From contig NZ_JAGGLM010000006.1 of NCBI RefSeq assembly GCF_017874415.1, positions 1 to 64,000 on the forward strand: 64,000 nucleotides of DNA. Reading direction: 5' to 3'. Of this stretch, positions 11,224 through 59,098 are shown in pieces. Both the position numbers and the translations under genes were made by a program. The DNA comes from Clostridium algifaecis (GTDB lineage Bacteria > Bacillota > Clostridia > Clostridiales > Clostridiaceae). Every line of letters begins with the position of its first letter. Within the stretch, counting starts at the first letter, position 1. The notes beneath the pieces are model-generated. The model did not search any database. It worked only from the letters and a program-made list of their open reading frames with translations, and had not been told where the DNA came from.

Positions 11224-11856
11224 TTACTCTACAAGTACAATCATTTTCTTTTCAAATAACATATTAGTTAATGCAATAGCACGTCCAACACCAATAACTG
11301 CTGCCAAAGTTCCAAGTCCAATTCCAACAATTTTTCCAGCACATACCAAACCAATAATTATAGTAATTATAACACACGATATATCCGTTATATTCTTCGC
11401 CAATCCAAGCCCTTTTTTTATTCGTTCTGATAGTGCCTGTGTGAGACCATCTGCTGCATTCGGAACTATCTTCATTTTAACTGTAATGTATGCCCCTATT
11501 CCAGTTAGCATAATTGCTGCTGCAAGTAAAAGCAAATTTATTATCAGGTTATTACAATTTATGACTATCATATCATTAAAAATGTTAATTATGCGACTAA
11601 ATATAATGCTCATAGGAATTTGTAATAAATCAAATAGATGAAATTTTTTTCCTCGCAATACTGCTTGTCCAGCTACACACAGTATATAAATGCACATAGT
11701 TGCATTTCCTAAATTTATATTCCAAATCTTTGATATAGAATATGGTATTGAAATTATAGGAGATACCCCTAAACCAGTTTTTGTATTTAATATAATCCCT
11801 AATGCTAATATTAAAAGTCCAATACAGTACATCATTACTCGATAAAACTTCTTCAC
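11224..11856 (-). CDS. YczE/YitT-like integral membrane protein
   Basis: This 210-residue multi-pass membrane protein is of the YczE/DUF6198 group. It has about five to six hydrophobic segments and the family-typical LALGIILNTKTGLGVSPI (residues about 17-34) after the first segment. A second glycine-rich block, KMKIVPNAADGLTQAL, lies about residues 127-142. Function is unknown; B. subtilis YczE is linked to surfactin locus genes but has no established activity. GAGGGATACAT precedes a GTG start. It is the last of three minus-strand transporter-like genes (MATE, EamA, this gene) with short gaps. Confidence 0.75.
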   Translation of the reverse strand: MKKFYRVMMYCIGLLILALGIILNTKTGLGVSPIISIPYSISKIWNINLGNATMCIYILCVAGQAVLRGKKFHLFDLLQIPMSIIFSRIINIFNDMIVINCNNLIINLLLLAAAIMLTGIGAYITVKMKIVPNAADGLTQALSERIKKGLGLAKNITDISCVIITIIIGLVCAGKIVGIGLGTLAAVIGVGRAIALTNMLFEKKMIVLVE

Positions 11857-50995: not shown

Positions 50996-52093
50996 TTATT
51001 TTAATATTTTTATATAGTCATTAAATTTTATATCGAAATACTCACATATATCACTTATTTCCTTAAGAGTGCTATCATTCATTGGAATTCCATTTTTCAT
51101 TTTATCATTATAAGCTTCAACTTCTTTTTCACCATGAGTATATATTCTTGCAGCACCTTTAGCTTTCTTTGATTCTCTGAGTTTCTTCAAATAATTAGAA
51201 AAGCTCTCTTCAATATCCTTCTTGTCTCCAAATATTCCATAATCTACTGCAAAGAAATAATGGCATGTCCCTGATCCACCTTTTCCGTCCAAATGAACTT
51301 TATCTCCTGTAAATCCTCCAGACAAAATAGCAGTAAACATTTCAACTGCAAGAGCAAATCCATATCCTTTATGCCCACCTGTCAATTCTTTAGATCCACC
51401 AAGTGGAAGCAATCCCCCACCAAGTTTTCTTGGTACATTATATAATATATCATGTGGGTCTTCTGTATCTTCTCCATCAATATTTAATGCAAGCCCTAGT
51501 GGAAGTGGTTCTTTTCTCTTATTATAGACTTCAATTTTTCCTCTTGTAACCACGCTTGTTGCCATGTCCATTAGAAATGGATAAGGTTCAGCCGGCATAG
51601 ATATTGCAATAGGATTTGTTCCAAGCATCGCTTCTCTGCCAAAGGTAGGAACTATAACAGCTGGTGAATTAGTCATGGATATTCCAAGCAGTCCTTGCTC
51701 TTCAGCCATTTTGGCATAATACCCTGCAATTCCATAATGATTTGAATTTCTAACTACTACCATCCCCATACCTGATGTTTTAGCTTTTTTAATTGCCAGG
51801 TTCATAGCTTTTTTACCAATAAGCTGGCCCATGCCTGCCTGTCCGTCAATAGTTGCAGATACAGGTGTTTCTTTGACTATCTTTACATCTGAGCTAACAT
51901 TTATAAGTCCATTTTTTATCTCACTGTAATACTTTACAAGTCTCTGGATTCCATGAGATTCAATACCATATAAATCTGCTAATAACAAAACATCTGTTAT
52001 TGACTGACTATCTTCTGCACTAAATCCAAACTTTTCAAAAACCAAATCGCACAGTTCTTTTAAATTTTCATACTTAACTTTTGAATATGTCAT
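50996..52093 (-). CDS. Ldh2/ComC-family NAD(P)-dependent 2-hydroxyacid dehydrogenase
   Basis: This 365-residue oxidoreductase is of the malate/L-sulfolactate/ureidoglycolate dehydrogenase (Ldh_2) family, which oxidises 2-hydroxyacids to 2-oxoacids and is unrelated to classical LDH. Seen: SHGIQRLVKYYSE (about residues 47-59) with the catalytic His, VVRNSNHYGIAGYY (about 113-126) and FLMDMATSVVTRGKIE (about 166-181). GGAGGAATAAT precedes the ATG. It is the last gene of the minus-strand run with LarA and the ABC transporter. Family members include sulfolactate dehydrogenase ComC, which fits the sulfur-linked leader, but the substrate is not shown by sequence. Confidence 0.85.
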   Translation of the reverse strand: MTYSKVKYENLKELCDLVFEKFGFSAEDSQSITDVLLLADLYGIESHGIQRLVKYYSEIKNGLINVSSDVKIVKETPVSATIDGQAGMGQLIGKKAMNLAIKKAKTSGMGMVVVRNSNHYGIAGYYAKMAEEQGLLGISMTNSPAVIVPTFGREAMLGTNPIAISMPAEPYPFLMDMATSVVTRGKIEVYNKRKEPLPLGLALNIDGEDTEDPHDILYNVPRKLGGGLLPLGGSKELTGGHKGYGFALAVEMFTAILSGGFTGDKVHLDGKGGSGTCHYFFAVDYGIFGDKKDIEESFSNYLKKLRESKKAKGAARIYTHGEKEVEAYNDKMKNGIPMNDSTLKEISDICEYFDIKFNDYIKILK

Positions 52094-52249: not shown

Positions 52250-53521
52250 TTACTTAAATTTTGGTTCTCCATTATAGAACTTAACATCCTCAGCTTCTGT
52301 CAGAATATCCAGATCAGGGTTCAATTTCACTTCTTCTAAAAGTGGTTCACTAACTATAATGTTATCTAATTTCATTGTATTTTTAATCCACACAATTTTA
52401 TGTTCACCAATCTTTACTCCATTGCAAATTTTTACTGCAATTTTTATTGCATCTTCTGAATTTGCCGCAACCATAGGTATCTTTGCAGGTTCCATATATG
52501 TACTAGTAAAGCAATTAGTATACATAGATATAAAATCTATCTTATCAAATAACTTTCTAGTAATTACATCCGATACTCCAACACCATTAGCATTTCCATG
52601 AGATTCTTTACTTATATCAAGTATTGCACATTTCTTAAATTCAGGTCCTCCACTAGCATATTTTGTAAAATATAATCCTGTTACATTAGGATCTTGTCCA
52701 TTTCCGCTTATATTCTTTCCTATTTCATCTATTACAAGTACATCAAATTTGGGCAAAAGTATTTTTGCCATAAGATCTCTGCTTTCTTTCAATAAAGCTT
52801 CTTCTCTTTTTAATTGAATAATCTCATCTTTATTTATAAATTCTATTTTATAAGTTTCATCATAAGCATTTTCAATTATAGCTAAGGCAAATAATACATT
52901 GATTTTTTTTGCTATCATACATCCAATCCCGGGTATAAGTTCTGAAAATCTTCCAAATCCTTTACTATGTATTGAATCCGCTCCTATTTGTTTTCCAAGT
53001 CCTATAGATAACATTTTGCAAATTCCGCTTTCTACTCTTCCTCTAAATCCTGTATGAGGTTTTATCCTTGGTATTATCACTATACCATCAGCCATAAGCA
53101 CACTTTTAGCTAAATATACAGGCAAATCAGGTTCATATTCTCCTATAATTTTTGTGTCCATAGATCCATCTATTTTAACACCCATAGTCTCTTCTGAAAT
53201 TCCATAAGAATTCAAAATTTCTATTTGTCCATTTTCTGTAGCTCCTCCATGACTTCCCATAGCAGGAACTATAAATGGTCTGGCTCCAGCCTCTTTTAGA
53301 CAGTTTATGACTGTTTTCGTTATTATATTTATATTTGCTATTCCCCTGCTCCCTACACCTACTGCAATTTTTTTATTTCTCAAGCTATTTATATATGGCA
53401 TAATCTGTTTTTTCACTTCATCACTAACATTTTCAATTTTATCCCTTTTAAAATTTTGTCTTACTTTTAAGAATTTAGGCAATTCTATTTTAGAAAATTT
53501 ACTTAAATCAAGAGACTCCAC
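52250..53521 (-). CDS. LarA-family (nickel-pincer) 2-hydroxyacid racemase-like protein
   Basis: This 423-residue member of the lactate racemase LarA family (DUF2088) has PAMGSHGGATENGQ (about residues 91-104) and IPRIKPHTGFRG (about 151-162), which match the histidine-rich cofactor-binding region. The conserved lysine region near ISKESHGNANGVG (about 290-302) is also visible. LarA enzymes need a nickel-pincer nucleotide made by LarB, LarC and LarE, none of which is in this window. The start is GTG at 53521, 8 bases after AGAAGG. It lies between an ABC transporter cluster and a dehydrogenase for 2-hydroxyacids, which suggests that it interconverts the enantiomers of the same compound. Confidence 0.8.
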   Translation of the reverse strand: MESLDLSKFSKIELPKFLKVRQNFKRDKIENVSDEVKKQIMPYINSLRNKKIAVGVGSRGIANINIITKTVINCLKEAGARPFIVPAMGSHGGATENGQIEILNSYGISEETMGVKIDGSMDTKIIGEYEPDLPVYLAKSVLMADGIVIIPRIKPHTGFRGRVESGICKMLSIGLGKQIGADSIHSKGFGRFSELIPGIGCMIAKKINVLFALAIIENAYDETYKIEFINKDEIIQLKREEALLKESRDLMAKILLPKFDVLVIDEIGKNISGNGQDPNVTGLYFTKYASGGPEFKKCAILDISKESHGNANGVGVSDVITRKLFDKIDFISMYTNCFTSTYMEPAKIPMVAANSEDAIKIAVKICNGVKIGEHKIVWIKNTMKLDNIIVSEPLLEEVKLNPDLDILTEAEDVKFYNGEPKFK

Positions 53522-53551
53522 ATTATACACCTTCTAAATAATTAATATTTT

Positions 53552-53595: not shown

Positions 53596-54603
53596 TTATT
53601 GCTGTATTCCAGAATCTTTTATATAAGTTTTATCTATAAGGTCATTTACCTCTACATCTTTTCTTATAGTATTATTTTGTCTTAAAGTTTTAATAGTTGA
53701 TGTAAGTGATTTTGTAACTTCATCAGTTAATCTTATATCAAAGTCTTCCTTAGCAAGACCTTTTGCTACAATTTCCTTTTTTAACTTAAGTTCTTTTGAT
53801 ATAATATCAGCTGCCTGATCTGGATTTGCTTTGACCCATTTTTCCGTCTTTTCGTAGACTTTCAATACTCTTTTTATTACATCAGGATTATTTTTAGCGA
53901 AGTCATTATTTGCCATAATTAAATTTACATCATATTTAAGATTAGTTCCATCCCCTATTATGTGAGCTGTATTCTCAGCTTCAATAGAAGATGCATATGG
54001 TTCCCAAACAATTGCCGCATCAATGTTCTTTGATGTAAAAGATGTTTTTATATCAGGCGGCTGTAAATTAACAAGTTGTATATCACTTTGTTTAAGTCCT
54101 TCTGATGCCAAATACCTAGAAAGAAGCATATGTGCAGAGGAACCAACCGTAACTGCCACTTTTTTTCCTTTTAAATCTTTAGCTGACTTTATATTTGAAC
54201 CAGTTGCTGCAAGTATTGAATTTAATCTATAACCTGCTGCATAAACTCCAATAGCTTTAACATCAGTGTTATTTGCTCTCGCCTGAATGGCAGGTTGATC
54301 TCCAACTTCTCCTATATCAAGTTTTCCTCCTGCAAACGCTTCAACCATAGGTGGTCCAGATACAAAGCTTTGAAATTTAATATTTATATTATCTTTTTTA
54401 AACTCATCATTAAACCATCCTTTATTTTTGGCAATAATTAAAAGTGCATGATTTATTCCAGGTTGATAACCTATATTAATCTCTTTTAGTTTCGATGGAG
54501 ATTTTTTTGTATTATTTCCAGAATTACCACTTGTTTGTCCGCATCCTGAAAAAGCAAACAAACTTATTAATAATATTGAAACTATAGAAAATACTTTTTT
54601 CAT
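53596..54603 (-). CDS. ABC transporter substrate-binding lipoprotein (SsuA/TauA/NMT1 type)
   Basis: This 335-residue extracytoplasmic solute-binding protein has a lipoprotein signal peptide whose lipobox is FAFSGCG (Cys at about residue 20). The NMT1/SsuA-like fold follows: EINIGYQPGINHALLIIAK (about 41-59), GGKLDIGEVGDQPAI and VGSSAHMLLSRYL. This family binds sulfonates, taurine, nitrate or thiamine precursors. AAGGAGAGTGAATATT precedes the ATG at 54603; the longer frame has no signal-peptide logic. It is 19 bases after the threonine-synthase-like gene and in one operon with permease and ATPase. Confidence 0.9.
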   Translation of the reverse strand: MKKVFSIVSILLISLFAFSGCGQTSGNSGNNTKKSPSKLKEINIGYQPGINHALLIIAKNKGWFNDEFKKDNINIKFQSFVSGPPMVEAFAGGKLDIGEVGDQPAIQARANNTDVKAIGVYAAGYRLNSILAATGSNIKSAKDLKGKKVAVTVGSSAHMLLSRYLASEGLKQSDIQLVNLQPPDIKTSFTSKNIDAAIVWEPYASSIEAENTAHIIGDGTNLKYDVNLIMANNDFAKNNPDVIKRVLKVYEKTEKWVKANPDQAADIISKELKLKKEIVAKGLAKEDFDIRLTDEVTKSLTSTIKTLRQNNTIRKDVEVNDLIDKTYIKDSGIQQ

Positions 54604-54622
54604 AATATTCACTCTCCTTATT

Positions 54623-55822
54623 TTAAATATCTGCATCAATTTCAATTACCGGAAGTTTTTCTTCAACCAAATTAGGATATTTTAATCCACTTCCTGTATT
54701 CAAAAGTACAACTTTTTCATCTGATTTTAAGAAACCTGTCTTAAACAATTTATTTACTGCTGCAACTAATGTAGCTCCTTCAGGGCATATAAACAGCCCT
54801 TCAGTCTTTGCCAATAAATCAAGTGATTCAACAATTTCAGAATCTTTTACTTCAACTGCTGTCCCTTTGCTCTTTCTAATTGCATCTAAAACTATAAAAT
54901 CTCCAAGAGCTTTAGGTACACGTATTCCTCCAGCTATAGTATTTGCATTTGTGCAAAATTCAGAAGCTTCTGTATTTTCATTAAATGCTTTTACAATAGG
55001 ATTACATCCTTCCGATTGAACTGCAATAAGCTTTGGAACCTTGTCCTTAATCCATCCAAGTTCTTTAAGTTCCTGGAAAGCTTTCCATATTCCAATTATT
55101 CCCACACCGCCACCCGTTGGGTAAAGTATTGCATCTGGAAATTCCCAATTAAAATATTCTGCAATTTCAAGCCCCATAGTCTTTTTTCCTTCAATTCTAT
55201 ATGGTTCTTTAAGTGTAGCTGCATCAAACCATCCGTATTTTTTTACACCTTTAGCTATTATTTTGCCAGCATCAGATATTAATCCCTTAACAAGATAAGT
55301 TTTTGAGCCATATATAAATGCCTCTTTTTTAGCCAGATCAGGTGCATCTTGAGGCATAGCAACTACAAGTTCAATTCCTGCTTTAGCAGCATATGCTGAC
55401 CATGCTCCTCCTGCATTACCTGCTGTAGGCATTGCTATTGTTTTTATTCCAAGTTCCTTAGCCTTTGATAATCCAACTGCAGCTCCCCTTGCCTTGAATG
55501 TTCCTGTAGGATTTAGTCCTTCATCCTTAATATATAAATTCTTTAACCCTATTCTTTCTCCTAAATCTTTGGCTTTAAGTACAGGAGTATCTCCTTCACC
55601 AAGAGTTACTATATTTTTTTCATCTTCAATTGGCAATAGTTCTCTAAATCTGAATAATCCTTTTTCTCTAGTTTTAAATACATTTTTGTCTACATTCTTT
55701 TTTATTTTTTCCAAATCGTATCTTACAAGTAATGGACCACCACACTCACATAAATTATGTGGCTCATCTATTGAATATTTTTTTCCACACTTTGAACATT
55801 CTAAATAACTAAAATAACTCAT
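54623..55822 (-). CDS. Threonine synthase-like PLP enzyme
   Basis: This 399-residue fold-type II PLP enzyme has an N-terminal four-cysteine zinc ribbon (CSKCG at 9-13 and LCECGG about 28-33). The PLP lysine lies in NPTGTFKARGAAVG (about 103-116) and the phosphate-binding loop in LYPTGGGVGIIG (about 232-243). It is closest in plan to threonine synthase of the archaeal/plant type; cysteate synthase is a known paralog with the same plan. Its place inside a SAM-riboswitch-controlled sulfonate-type ABC operon is unusual for a plain threonine synthase. I therefore keep the reaction open: threonine synthesis or a sulfur-related beta/gamma-replacement. Confidence 0.8.
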   Translation of the reverse strand: MSYFSYLECSKCGKKYSIDEPHNLCECGGPLLVRYDLEKIKKNVDKNVFKTREKGLFRFRELLPIEDEKNIVTLGEGDTPVLKAKDLGERIGLKNLYIKDEGLNPTGTFKARGAAVGLSKAKELGIKTIAMPTAGNAGGAWSAYAAKAGIELVVAMPQDAPDLAKKEAFIYGSKTYLVKGLISDAGKIIAKGVKKYGWFDAATLKEPYRIEGKKTMGLEIAEYFNWEFPDAILYPTGGGVGIIGIWKAFQELKELGWIKDKVPKLIAVQSEGCNPIVKAFNENTEASEFCTNANTIAGGIRVPKALGDFIVLDAIRKSKGTAVEVKDSEIVESLDLLAKTEGLFICPEGATLVAAVNKLFKTGFLKSDEKVVLLNTGSGLKYPNLVEEKLPVIEIDADI

Positions 55823-55863: not shown

Positions 55864-56652
55864 TTATATATTATATGAAAATGGATTTTCTACTTTAGTA
55901 AAAAATTCATCATATATCTTGCTTTTAATACATGTAAAATCATATCCACTTCTATCACGAGGCCTTGATAATTCAACAGGCACTATTTTCTTAATTGTTC
56001 CTGGTCTGCTGGATAGAACTATTACCCTATCGCCAAGATATATAGCTTCATCTATATCATGGGTTACAAGTATCATGGTAGTATTTTCTTTTTCCCATAT
56101 TTTTAAAATTTCCTGCTGCATATTAATACGTGTCATTGCATCTAAAGCACCAAATGGTTCGTCTAATAATAGAAGCTTAGGTTTATTTATAAGAGCCCTA
56201 GCAATACTTATTCTTTGTTTCATACCACCTGACAATTGATCAGGATATGCTTTTGCAAAACTAGTAAGTCCAACTAATTCAAGCTGCTTGTGGACTAATT
56301 CTTTTTTTTCAGAATTTGATACTCTTCTACTAAGTCCAAAAGCTATATTCTTTTCTACTGTAAGCCACGGAAAAAGTCGTGCTTCCTGAAAAATCATTCC
56401 ACGATCTACTCTAGGTCCTTTAATAGATTCTCCATATGATAATATATTACCTGAATAATTTCTATCCAAACCAACTATCATTCTAAGCAAAGTACTCTTG
56501 CCACATCCACTAGATCCAACAATGCTTAAGAATTCTCCTTGATTGACTGATAAACTTATATTATTCAATACATTAAAATTTCCACCATCTATTTTAAAAG
56601 TCTTGCTAAGATTCTGTATTTCAATTGATTTTAAAGTTTTTTTATCATTCAT
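55864..56652 (-). CDS. ABC transporter ATP-binding protein (SsuB/TauB type)
   Basis: This 262-residue ATPase has Walker A GSSGCGKST (about residues 45-53), a Q-loop in MIFQEARLFPW, the signature LSGGMKQR (about 134-141), Walker B LLLLDEPFGALD (about 156-167) and the switch LVTHDIDEA. The aromatic-type Q-loop sequence and size fit the nitrate/sulfonate/taurine group. GAGGTGCAAAGTT precedes the ATG at 56652. It follows the permease by 23 bases. Confidence 0.92.
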   Translation of the reverse strand: MNDKKTLKSIEIQNLSKTFKIDGGNFNVLNNISLSVNQGEFLSIVGSSGCGKSTLLRMIVGLDRNYSGNILSYGESIKGPRVDRGMIFQEARLFPWLTVEKNIAFGLSRRVSNSEKKELVHKQLELVGLTSFAKAYPDQLSGGMKQRISIARALINKPKLLLLDEPFGALDAMTRINMQQEILKIWEKENTTMILVTHDIDEAIYLGDRVIVLSSRPGTIKKIVPVELSRPRDRSGYDFTCIKSKIYDEFFTKVENPFSYNI

Positions 56653-56675
56653 AACTTTGCACCTCTTTTTTAATT

Positions 56676-57464
56676 TCAACTATTTACATTCCATCTAATA
56701 ACTAAAACTTGTAATTTTTTTATCATGTAATCTATTAAAAATCCAATCACACCTATTGAAAAAACCCCAACTAACATGACATCTGGCTGCGAAAGTTCCC
56801 TCGCATATGATATTGAATATCCTATACCTGAAGTAGCTGCAATTATTTCAGCTGTAATAACACTCATCCATGCACTCCCAATTCCTATTCGAAGTCCTGT
56901 AAAAATAGATGGAAGAGCTGATGGGAAAACTATTTTTGTAAGTACTTCAAGCTTATTTTTTTCTAATATTTCAGAAACTTCCAAATATTTTTTATCTGCT
57001 CCTTTTATACCATAAATAGTATTTATGAGTATAGGCCAGAAACTTCCAATTACTATTACAGTTATTTTAGAAGCTTCATCTATTCCCATCCACAGTATAA
57101 GTACAGGAACCCATGCTACAATAGGTATTGGTCTTAAAAAACCTATAAGCAAATCTACAGCTTTTTCTGCTATTCTGAACAATCCAATCAATATACCACA
57201 AATTATACCCAAAGATGCTCCTATACAATATCCTTTTACAACTCTTAGTATACTTATGGATAAATTTCTTGCCAAATCTCCGCTTTTAACCATATCTATA
57301 AATGCTAAAAATATAGTATGAGGAGAAGGAAGAACAGATTGCTTAACAAGTCCTTTATCACTTAAAACCTGCCATAGTAATATTATTATTACCGGAACTA
57401 CCAATGCAATAGCTATGTTTCCTATCATTTTAATTTTTTTGTTCAAATCAAATTTTATATTCAT
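56676..57464 (-). CDS. ABC transporter permease (SsuC/TauC type)
   Basis: This 262-residue membrane permease has six hydrophobic segments and the cytoplasmic EAA-like loop (YLEVSEILEKNKLEVLTKIVFPSALPSIFTG, about residues 164-194, shown by its ends). It belongs to the BPD_transp_1 sulfonate/nitrate group. The ATG at 57464 is spaced properly from GAGAGGTG; an ATG two codons earlier is too close. It is the first gene after the T-box/SAM-I leader, so the whole run from here is under that control. Confidence 0.92.
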   Translation of the reverse strand: MNIKFDLNKKIKMIGNIAIALVVPVIIILLWQVLSDKGLVKQSVLPSPHTIFLAFIDMVKSGDLARNLSISILRVVKGYCIGASLGIICGILIGLFRIAEKAVDLLIGFLRPIPIVAWVPVLILWMGIDEASKITVIVIGSFWPILINTIYGIKGADKKYLEVSEILEKNKLEVLTKIVFPSALPSIFTGLRIGIGSAWMSVITAEIIAATSGIGYSISYARELSQPDVMLVGVFSIGVIGFLIDYMIKKLQVLVIRWNVNS

Positions 57465-57600
57465 TTTCATTCACCTCTCTTGGTATTATATTAAATTCAA
57501 TAAATAAATTTTGTAATATATAAAATATTCAAATTATTATTTCTATAAGTTTTATCTTATTTAATTGATATCTTACATAGTAATTAAAACTTATTTTAAT

Positions 57601-57635
57601 TAAAAAAGCTGTTTTTCGTATAAGAAAAACAGCTT
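57601..57635 (-). terminator. Terminator of the SAM-I riboswitch
   Basis: AAGCTGTTTTTC pairs with GAAAAACAGCTT on the minus strand with a 6-base loop, followed by TTTTTAATT. It lies 40 bases after the SAM aptamer and 137 bases before the permease start. It is the expected OFF-switch of that riboswitch. Confidence 0.85.
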
Positions 57636-57673
57636 GAAATTCAAGTTAAAAACTCAATTAACTCAACTACTTT

Positions 57674-57781
57674 TCTTATCTTCCAGAACAAATTACTTAT
57701 TCTGCAGGAATTGACACCGATACATATAAATGCCGGTTGTCGGGTTTCATAGGGCCAGTCCCTCTACCTCTCTTGATAAGA
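57674..57781 (-). promoter_or_regulatory. SAM-I riboswitch (S-box)
   Basis: On the minus strand the S-box core is clear: CTTATCAAGAGAGG at the 5' side (57780), then GGGACTGGCCC, TGAAACCC and GACAACC. GTGTCAATTCC follows, and GATAAG at 57680 pairs with the first CTTATC as helix P1. SAM binding would allow the downstream terminator to form and stop expression of the ABC/PLP operon. Very close match to the family consensus; regulation by SAM is established for this class. Confidence 0.93.
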
Positions 57782-57873
57782 GAATAACTATAATTTAATT
57801 TTATTTAATAATATTAAATCATTTATTCCACTTTGTCAATATTAACAATATTTAATTTTTTAATTAAGAATAT

Positions 57874-58072
57874 AAAAAATTCTCCCCCTATAAATACAAA
57901 GGCAGAATTAATTCCGCGGTCCCACTCTGTTTACTATAAAATAAATTTATAGTAACTCTTATACTTAAATGCTCAAGAGTGCACTTCAATTAATAATATT
58001 CAAGATCTCTTCCAGCTCATTAAAGATCTCTCTCTTGGAATTCTTCTTAATTTACTCTTTCCTTCATTGCAT
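57874..58072 (-). promoter_or_regulatory. T-box riboswitch upstream of the SAM-I riboswitch (Cys or Val specifier)
   Basis: The minus strand shows GGAAAGAGTAAATTAAG opening stem I, the AGAGAGATC and GAGCTGG distal parts, and specifier region GAAGTGCACTC (57987-57977). The T-box AGAGTGGGACCGCGG (57928-57914) and a terminator, AATTCTGCC with GGGGGAGAATT and six T (57909-57874), follow. The specifier reads UGC (Cys) or GUG (Val) depending on phase; spacing like the other two T-boxes here gives GUG, sulfur context favours UGC. This is the first of two switches in tandem. Confidence 0.85.
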
Positions 58073-58156
58073 AAAATAATTTATTTTTAAAATCTAATAA
58101 ATATTACTTTTATAATTTCTTGATTTCATATATGATTATATCAAACACATAGACAT

Positions 58157-58189
58157 ATATCAAATACTTAAAATATATAGAATTGATAT
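58157..58189. promoter_or_regulatory. Candidate LysR operator in the divergent promoter region
   Basis: ATATCAA (58157-58163) and TTGATAT (58183-58189) are inverted repeats 19 bases apart, 37 bases upstream of the LysR start; another TTGAT/ATATCAA pair lies just to the left (about 58122-58145). Such AT-rich dyads are typical LysR sites. Function inferred. Confidence 0.4.
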
Positions 58190-58225
58190 GAAAAACATAT
58201 AAATAAAGTGAGGAAGGATTATTTT

Positions 58226-59098
58226 ATGGATATTAGACAGCTCAAATACTTTTTGAAAATTGTCGAAAAGGGTAGTATAACTAAAGCGGCAGCAGAATTA
58301 CATATAGCTCAACCCCCATTAAGTCAACAATTAAAATCACTTGAGGATGAACTTGGTATAAAACTAATAGAAAGAAATACCAGAAAGATTCAGATAACAG
58401 ATGCCGGCAAAATATTGCAATATCGTTCTAAACAAATTCTAGAACTAACTAAAAATACAGAAAAAGAATTAAAGGATCTAAAACATGGCTCTAAAGGAAT
58501 ATTGTCCCTAGGAACTGTTCCATCTTCAGGTACTACAATATTGCTAAAAAAAATAAATCAATTTCACGAAAAGTATCCCCATATAAATTTTAAAATAAAA
58601 GAAAGCAATACTTTTGAAATATTAAAATTATTAACTATAGGGACTATAGAATTGGGCATAGTATTTACACCTTTTAATTCGGAAGCTTTCGAGTCATTGA
58701 TGCTTGAAAGTGAACCAATGGTAATTGCTTTTAGATCTGGGGATTATTTTAATAACAACAACTACTACAAAATCGGTTTAAATGAACTTATAAATAAACC
58801 ACTTATAATAGACCAAAAATTTAAGGATATGTTAATCCATTCATGTCAGCAATCTGGATTTGAGCCAAGGATATTATGTGAAAATCAAGATGCTAGAGCA
58901 GTACTCCTATGGGCAAATTCTGGAATTGGAATAGGGATAGTTCCTAAATCAGCTTCTCAACTTATACCAAGCTTAAATCTACAATATATAGAAATAGATG
59001 ACTTAATTTTAAAAACAAGACCTGCTGTAGTATGGTTAAGAAACAGAATTCTATCTGATATCTCAAAAAACTTTTTAGAAACCTTTAAATGCAATTAA
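58226..59098 (+). CDS. LysR-family transcriptional regulator
   Basis: This 290-residue LTTR has an N-terminal winged HTH (residues 1-60; QLKYFLKIVEKGSITKAAAE and AQPPLSQQLKSLEDELG) and a periplasmic-binding-like effector domain (about 90-290). It is divergent from the ABC/PLP operon, whose leader lies in between, and the candidate operator sits in that gap. This is the classic arrangement for a regulator of the neighbouring operon; sulfur LTTRs (CysB/Cbl/YtlI) work this way. The start at 58226 follows GAGGAAGGATT. Effector unknown. Confidence 0.9.
   Translation: MDIRQLKYFLKIVEKGSITKAAAELHIAQPPLSQQLKSLEDELGIKLIERNTRKIQITDAGKILQYRSKQILELTKNTEKELKDLKHGSKGILSLGTVPSSGTTILLKKINQFHEKYPHINFKIKESNTFEILKLLTIGTIELGIVFTPFNSEAFESLMLESEPMVIAFRSGDYFNNNNYYKIGLNELINKPLIIDQKFKDMLIHSCQQSGFEPRILCENQDARAVLLWANSGIGIGIVPKSASQLIPSLNLQYIEIDDLILKTRPAVVWLRNRILSDISKNFLETFKCN

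Follow-up and report, generated by a model that had tools for sequence, protein, structure and literature searches.

The window, that is, the whole stretch of 64,000 nucleotides from Clostridium algifaecis analysed here, carries on its minus strand a six-gene operon whose leader holds two transcription-terminating elements in series: a T-box and then a SAM-I riboswitch, each with its own terminator. Both lie upstream of an ssuC-like gene, and a LysR-type regulator gene diverges from the operon. Features are given below in the order of transcription, with coordinates from the window.

58208..59098, plus strand: LysR-type regulator gene, divergent (PF00126 and PF03466)
58135..58163, minus strand: promoter-like site P1 (TTGATA-17-TATAAT) upstream of the T-box, 11 of 12 consensus bases
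57895..58076, minus strand: compact T-box leader, predicted for tRNA-Cys, without Stem II and IIA/B (RF00230, 72.9 bits, E 9.7e-16, cut-off 93)
57981..57983, minus strand: specifier codon UGC (Cys), from the RF00230 alignment
57896..57930, minus strand: T-box antiterminator with bulge UGGGACC (57924-57918), fold -8.9 kcal/mol
57874..57909, minus strand: T-box intrinsic terminator and T run (32-nt stem-loop 57909-57878, T run to 57874, -11.9 kcal/mol)
57811..57839, minus strand: promoter-like site P2 (TTGACA-17-TAATAT) between the switches, 10 of 12 consensus bases
57673..57782, minus strand: SAM-I riboswitch aptamer (RF00162, 89.4 bits, cut-off 44.4, full length)
57620..57680, minus strand: SAM-I antiterminator (3' strand of the aptamer P1 helix plus 5' arm of the terminator), fold -15.5 kcal/mol
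57602..57635, minus strand: SAM-I intrinsic terminator and T run (12-bp stem 57635-57606, -14.3 kcal/mol)
56676..57470, minus strand: ssuC-like permease (PF00528; PRK11365 SsuC 183.6 bits, below cut-off 347)
55864..56679, minus strand: ssuB-like ATPase (PF00005, 127.2 bits)
54623..55822, minus strand: threonine-synthase-like PLP enzyme, a paralogue (PRK08197, 610.2 bits, cut-off 303)
53596..54645, minus strand: SsuA-family sulfonate-binding protein (TIGR01728, 254.5 bits, cut-off 163.5)
52250..53530, minus strand: nickel-pincer-cofactor isomerase, group 22, LarA-like (NF052515, 513.4 bits, cut-off 400)
50996..52093, minus strand: Ldh2-family dehydrogenase, sulfolactate-dehydrogenase-like (PF02615 395.4 bits; NF040650 271.9 bits, below cut-off 500)

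Covariance search and folding recover both switches and both terminators, confirming the tandem that the first-pass annotation of this DNA had described; its coordinates (T-box 58072-57874, SAM-I 57781-57674, second terminator 57635-57601) are right to within a few bases. Rfam models had been named there as the check on both elements, and a score under threshold for either as one of two findings that would refute the reading. The SAM-I aptamer scores well over its cut-off, whereas the T-box falls below its gathering score, so that this finding formally applies to it. No open reading frame of at least 80 amino acids lies between the two elements. A joint pattern of T-box and SAM cores, composed after the leader had been inspected, matches once in the 64-kb window and in none of 100 shuffles.

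The tandem is more than a one-off: complete tandems occupy six leaders in three genomes: the window and two further leaders (L055 and L056) in the same genome; L058 in C. tyrobutyricum (named record L042); and L051 and L059 in another congener, G398. Behind L055 (contig C8; T-box 108.4, SAM-I 82.9 bits) is a second ssu operon, with an arylsulfotransferase-like gene and with ssuC-, ssuB-, and ssuA-like genes, the last of which (156.5 bits) falls just short of the 163.5 bits that TIGR01728 requires. Behind L056 (contig C19; SAM-I 86.8 bits) is a sulfate-activation operon: cysC, aprA, an aprB-like ferredoxin (below the aprB cut-off), ssuA/B/C-like genes, cysD, and cysN. The L056 T-box, at 93.0 bits, sits at the cut-off; it was listed by the T-box search of the genome and absent from two other scans. 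The genes behind L058 match this sulfate operon by order and by sequence starts. L051 (T-box 75.6, SAM-I 88.9 bits) precedes the orthologue of the window operon, and its T-box is compact like the window's. L059 precedes a small open reading frame. Genes behind tandems thus include SsuABC types, APS kinase, APS reductase alpha, CysD, and CysN.

Two side observations concern neighboring arrangements. At L059 (3048-3620 in G398), the order is T-box, SAM-I, the small open reading frame (which we take to be YezD-like), and then a second SAM-I. At L057 (G000:C8:62000-72000, in the window's own genome), a UGC T-box at 1922-2178 on the minus strand and a SAM-I riboswitch at 2447-2556 on the plus strand are arranged divergently; this SAM-I lies upstream of two nitrogenase-component-1-like genes, perhaps encoding a methylthio-alkane reductase.

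The alignment of the window T-box (E-value from an 851-base search, 57400-58250) spans RF00230 model positions 1-219, apart from 40 deleted positions that correspond to Stem II plus the IIA/B pseudoknot. Both are absent from the window and L051 T-boxes and present in the other six of eight aligned. Because its score lies below the gathering score, the element is not listed by a scan at that threshold. The low score goes with the missing domain, which is optional, and the Rfam cut-off is a curator's threshold rather than a structural feature; a review of T-boxes, in its accessible text, likewise terms Stem II optional (PMC7583486). Anatomy therefore guides the assignment: the specifier, AGTA, UGGN bulge, antiterminator, and terminator are all intact, and Stem I with the specifier is present and covarying. 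On these features the element is classed as a T-box of compact form, despite its score.

Folding shows the T-box antiterminator and terminator to be mutually exclusive. A consensus terminator scan of 57400-58400 gave two terminator-like matches, against 0.1 expected from shuffles: the SAM-I terminator, and 57917-57902, corresponding to the upper helix in the T-box antiterminator; the T-box terminator was not among them. When the antiterminator stretch is folded, the minimum-energy structure looks as expected in four of seven leaders (window, L051, L055, and L058) and takes another shape in L053, L056, and L059.

The specifier position comes from the RF00230 alignment, and the codon was compared across eight T-boxes: those of all six complete tandems, plus two from the window's own genome (L057 and L017) that were included on the basis of reading UGC. 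UGC is invariant throughout, including all six tandem T-boxes, and valine or methionine specificity was rejected on this ground and on the RF00230 alignment. The gene contexts of the two added T-boxes are as expected for cysteine: L057 precedes a methyltransferase gene and a Cys/Met PLP gene, and L017 precedes a PALP gene that is probably cysK. RNAalifold predicts 41 pairs from the alignment, 20 of which have changed on both sides in one or more sequences, a raw count that ignores the relatedness of the sequences. The genome encodes a tRNA-Cys with anticodon GCA and end U73-CCA. The UGGA bulge of the six T-boxes other than those of the window and L051 pairs fully with this end; the UGGG bulge of the latter two pairs U73 through one G-U wobble, and the T-box database, in the text available, permits such a wobble (PMC7778990). 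Taken together, these features predict that the window T-box reads and responds to tRNA-Cys, although, without Stem II and IIA/B and with a wobble at U73, it may be weak.

In the SAM-I platform, residues 57679-57670, from the 3' strand of the P1 helix, pair in the folded antiterminator with 57630-57620 and thereby exclude the terminator, the competition expected of a SAM-I expression platform. The same alternative is found in the five other leaders folded. SAM binding by the aptamer, and SAM-dependent termination, are predicted from this arrangement.

Both sensors, each with its own expression platform, are present in one leader, with the P2-like sequence between them. We consider it likely that this leader is a two-input RNA gate that turns the operon on when uncharged tRNA-Cys coincides with low SAM. 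RNA polymerase would start at the promoter-like P1 site and transcribe the compact T-box first. With uncharged tRNA-Cys, the GCA anticodon would pair with the UGC specifier and the UCCA end with the UGGG bulge, holding the antiterminator; with charged tRNA-Cys, no antiterminator would form and transcription would stop at the first terminator. Polymerase that passes this point would make the SAM-I aptamer. Bound SAM would close the P1 helix, leaving the second terminator free to form; an unbound aptamer would give up its P1 3' strand to the antiterminator and permit readthrough. Expression of the ssuCB, PLP enzyme, ssuA, isomerase, and dehydrogenase genes would then require a shortage of cysteine and of SAM (methionine) alike. 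Because oxidised sulfur supplies cysteine as well as methionine, genes that import it would sensibly be switched off whenever one of the two is abundant. The elements, alternative folds, covariation, specifier, tRNA, and recurrence are seen directly; the ligand responses, the gate logic, transcription from P1, and the organosulfonate substrate follow from them by interpretation. The AND-type logic proposed in the first-pass annotation stands insofar as the switches are in series, and is refined to "uncharged tRNA-Cys AND NOT SAM"; the tRNA, there left among those for methionine, cysteine, and valine, is read as tRNA-Cys.

A promoter between the switches, making two separate transcripts, had been named in the first-pass annotation as the other finding that would speak against its reading, and a candidate is present: P2, at 57839-57811. 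Under a two-promoter arrangement, the P1 transcript would be under T-box and SAM-I control and the P2 transcript under SAM-I control alone, yielding mainly SAM control with a cysteine boost. P2 lies in a 91-nt spacer, and the -35 part of the site is identical in L051. T-box and SAM-I matches are 112 nt apart in the window as against 38-46 nt in L055, L056, L058, and L059, and the lone SAM-I of a related leader, L052, has a promoter-like site upstream (11 of 12 bases, reached by 7 of 500 shuffles). However, 68 of 500 shuffles of the spacer equal the P2 score (58 of 500 for L051), and the -10 is not conserved: L051 offers at best TATGTT, with a spacing of 18, and the best site in L053 differs. 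Promoter-like sites abound in this AT-rich stretch: a 1001-base scan (57400-58400) finds 10, against 7.5 (sd 2.9) in shuffles. In L055, L056, and L058, moreover, just 19-24 nt separate the T-box terminator from SAM-I, and a promoter core does not fit. Two promoters seem to us the less probable arrangement, albeit the strongest competitor to the two-input gate; P2, if active, would let part of transcription bypass the T-box. The P1 score is reached by 8 of 500 shuffles of its region, and P1 is aligned in L051 (10 of 12 bases, reached by 68 of 500 shuffles) and L053. L055, L056, and L058 have a promoter-like site matching all 12 bases upstream of the T-box, which no shuffle of 500 reaches. Given this pattern of sites, the sulfate and second ssu operons would have the tightest gate, and the window leader may be leaky.

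Alternatively, the window T-box could be a decaying remnant, leaving SAM-I alone functional. The two compact T-boxes are the lowest-scoring of the tandems (72.9 and 75.6 bits, versus 93.0 for L056 and 102-116 for L055, L058, and L059), Stem II and IIA/B are gone, and L053 has lost Stem I. Yet the specifier, AGTA, bulge, antiterminator, and terminator are intact, L051 retains the same compact T-box with compensating changes, and the lost Stem II is of the kind described as optional (PMC7583486, accessible text), so that decay appears improbable. That the T-box and SAM-I are chance neighbors in separate adjoining units can be given hardly any credence: the P2-like site is all that speaks for it, while the elements share a strand with no sizable reading frame between them, the tandem recurs in congeners, and the counts of each element in the genome lead one to expect about 0.02 same-strand pairs within 200 nt, against three found. 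The two-input gate thus remains the preferred reading.

Pattern searches indicate that the T-boxCys/SAM-I pairing is rare. A loose core pattern was found in 3 of 206 family genomes at short spacing and 3 of 206 at long spacing; combined, these are four genomes (G000, which is the window's own; G336, C. tyrobutyricum; G398; and G393, with a remnant), or 4 of 13 in the genus and none of the 193 other family members. In a phylum sample at short spacing, it matched 1 of 398, the window's own genome. A strict pattern matched 2 of 391 class genomes, and within the genus 3 of 13 at short and 1 of 13 at long spacing; in the genome_contigs collection, from which records near the window's genome are possibly left out, it matched one record. 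These counts are lower bounds: the patterns need exact core letters, the order T-box then SAM-I, and about 46-167 nt between cores; the strict form missed L051, and the loose form covered the family at two spacings and the phylum sample at short spacing. Weak T-boxes can also be missed, as the T-box search of the window's own genome gave 31 matches without the window T-box among them. For L052, L054, and L055-L059, the RNA-family scan was run at gathering scores.

The operon's sulfur link, first drawn from the switches, is supported. Its genes include SsuCBA types and a sulfolactate-dehydrogenase-like gene, and tandems also precede the second ssu and sulfate operons. The SsuA-family protein, at 254.5 bits against a cut-off of 163.5, is the mark of sulfonate uptake, and the substrate is presumably an organosulfonate. 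For the ssuB-like ATPase, no NCBIfam model among those shown exceeded its cut-off. The best PDB match of the dehydrogenase is malate dehydrogenase 1v9n, and the second is L-sulfolactate dehydrogenase 2x06 (1.7e-69). The PLP enzyme lies beside ssu-type genes in all eight genomes examined. Although it scores over the PRK08197 cut-off, it is neither the only copy nor linked to thr genes, as a true ThrC would be; a role as the cell's sole threonine synthase was rejected, as the genome has another, canonical thrC, whose product of 501 amino acids carries the ThrC N-terminal domain.

The group 22 nickel-pincer isomerase has no related solved structure at E 0.001. Its membership of group 22 was rejected as support for a dedicated sulfolactate racemase, because a 71%-identical relative in congener G210 lies among sugar-acid dehydratase genes. 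At that locus (L092, 7026-11162), the relative is accompanied by galactarate/altronate-dehydratase-like and xylonate-dehydratase genes. In G398, fragments of a group 22 isomerase lie downstream of ssuA (G398:C1:2631173-2631547), apparently a decayed gene.

Leaders of orthologous operons, when aligned, differ in how much of the tandem they hold. L051 has the full tandem. L053, still before SAM-I, keeps the P1 site, antiterminator, and terminator, with Stem I and the specifier deleted; a T-box search up to E 1 returns nothing for it, and the T-box input seems dispensable in this line because Stem I has been lost there. The L053 relic is at 11428-11530. In L052, SAM-I has no T-box partner and follows a promoter-like site of its own. 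Three genomes from a different genus (L089, L090, and L091) retain the six-gene operon and divergent LysR gene, and they give no RNA-family match up to E 0.01. The LysR gene adjoins the operon also in L051 and L053, but not in L052 or L054; for L052, no LysR-like gene was found within the 18 kb taken. On the simplest reading, LysR control would have come first, the RNA switches would have been gained within the genus, and the T-box would have been lost again in one line.

Related arrangements are in print. A 2022 survey, in its accessible text, counts T-boxMet/SAM-I (two cases) and SAM-I/T-boxMet (seven cases), and predicts "A AND NOT B" and "NOT A AND B" logic (PMC9481103). These tandems, like the window leader, place a T-box and SAM-I in series. 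However, theirs respond to tRNA-Met, so that both inputs report on the methionine branch, whereas the window leader would combine cysteine and SAM; T-boxCys/SAM-I does not appear in the accessible text of Table 2 of that survey. A 2025 survey, as far as its accessible text goes, lists "T-box SAM" before ssuA/ssuB/ssuC COGs in Bacillota as 8% of contiguous-switch cases (PMC12452182). The gene families and switch order are those of the window, and such leaders may be included in this class, but that text gives no tRNA specificity, and the operons are treated there as hydroxymethylpyrimidine/thiamine transport, whereas the window operon is read as sulfur-linked.

The ubiG-mccBA operon of C. acetobutylicum, as described in the available text of two reports, has a T-boxCys in the sense leader and an S-box on an antisense transcript (PMC9943018, PMC2940859). 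The same two sensors thus act on one sulfur operon in both cases. In ubiG-mccBA the antisense S-box lies at the 3' end and high SAM favors expression; the window leader, in contrast, has both switches in one sense leader, and low SAM is predicted to favor expression. A T-boxCys/SAM-I tandem is named in none of the titles and abstracts of the openly accessible literature searched. The parts are therefore known, and the kind is already in print and partly catalogued; the pairing of cysteine with SAM is a new variation.

A broader reading, which we put forward tentatively and as somewhat short of an even chance, is that a small Clostridium lineage runs a two-input RNA regulon, in which T-boxCys/SAM-I tandems would gate sulfate activation and organosulfonate uptake, so that oxidised sulfur enters only when cysteine and SAM are both short. 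The leaders would then show the gate built and lost (no RNA family; SAM-I alone; full tandem; Stem I deleted), and the window operon, with its transporter, PLP enzyme, nickel-pincer isomerase, and sulfolactate-dehydrogenase-like enzyme, may be an oxygen-independent route for assimilating a C3 sulfonate such as sulfolactate or cysteate. Such a system would be a natural gate with two metabolite inputs, both of them products of a single assimilation pathway, and would serve three operons in the same genome. Relatives whose gates are complete, partial, or missing offer material on the rise and decay of such gates, and the linked operon offers candidate genes for using sulfonates as a sulfur source under anaerobic conditions.

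Other RNA switches lie elsewhere in the window. The next element downstream of the operon is a T-box at 50939-50730 on the minus strand, before proS (prolyl-tRNA synthetase) and with CCU (Pro) at the specifier position; it forms a separate, ordinary unit. A lysine riboswitch (114.2 bits) is at window positions 40984-40807.
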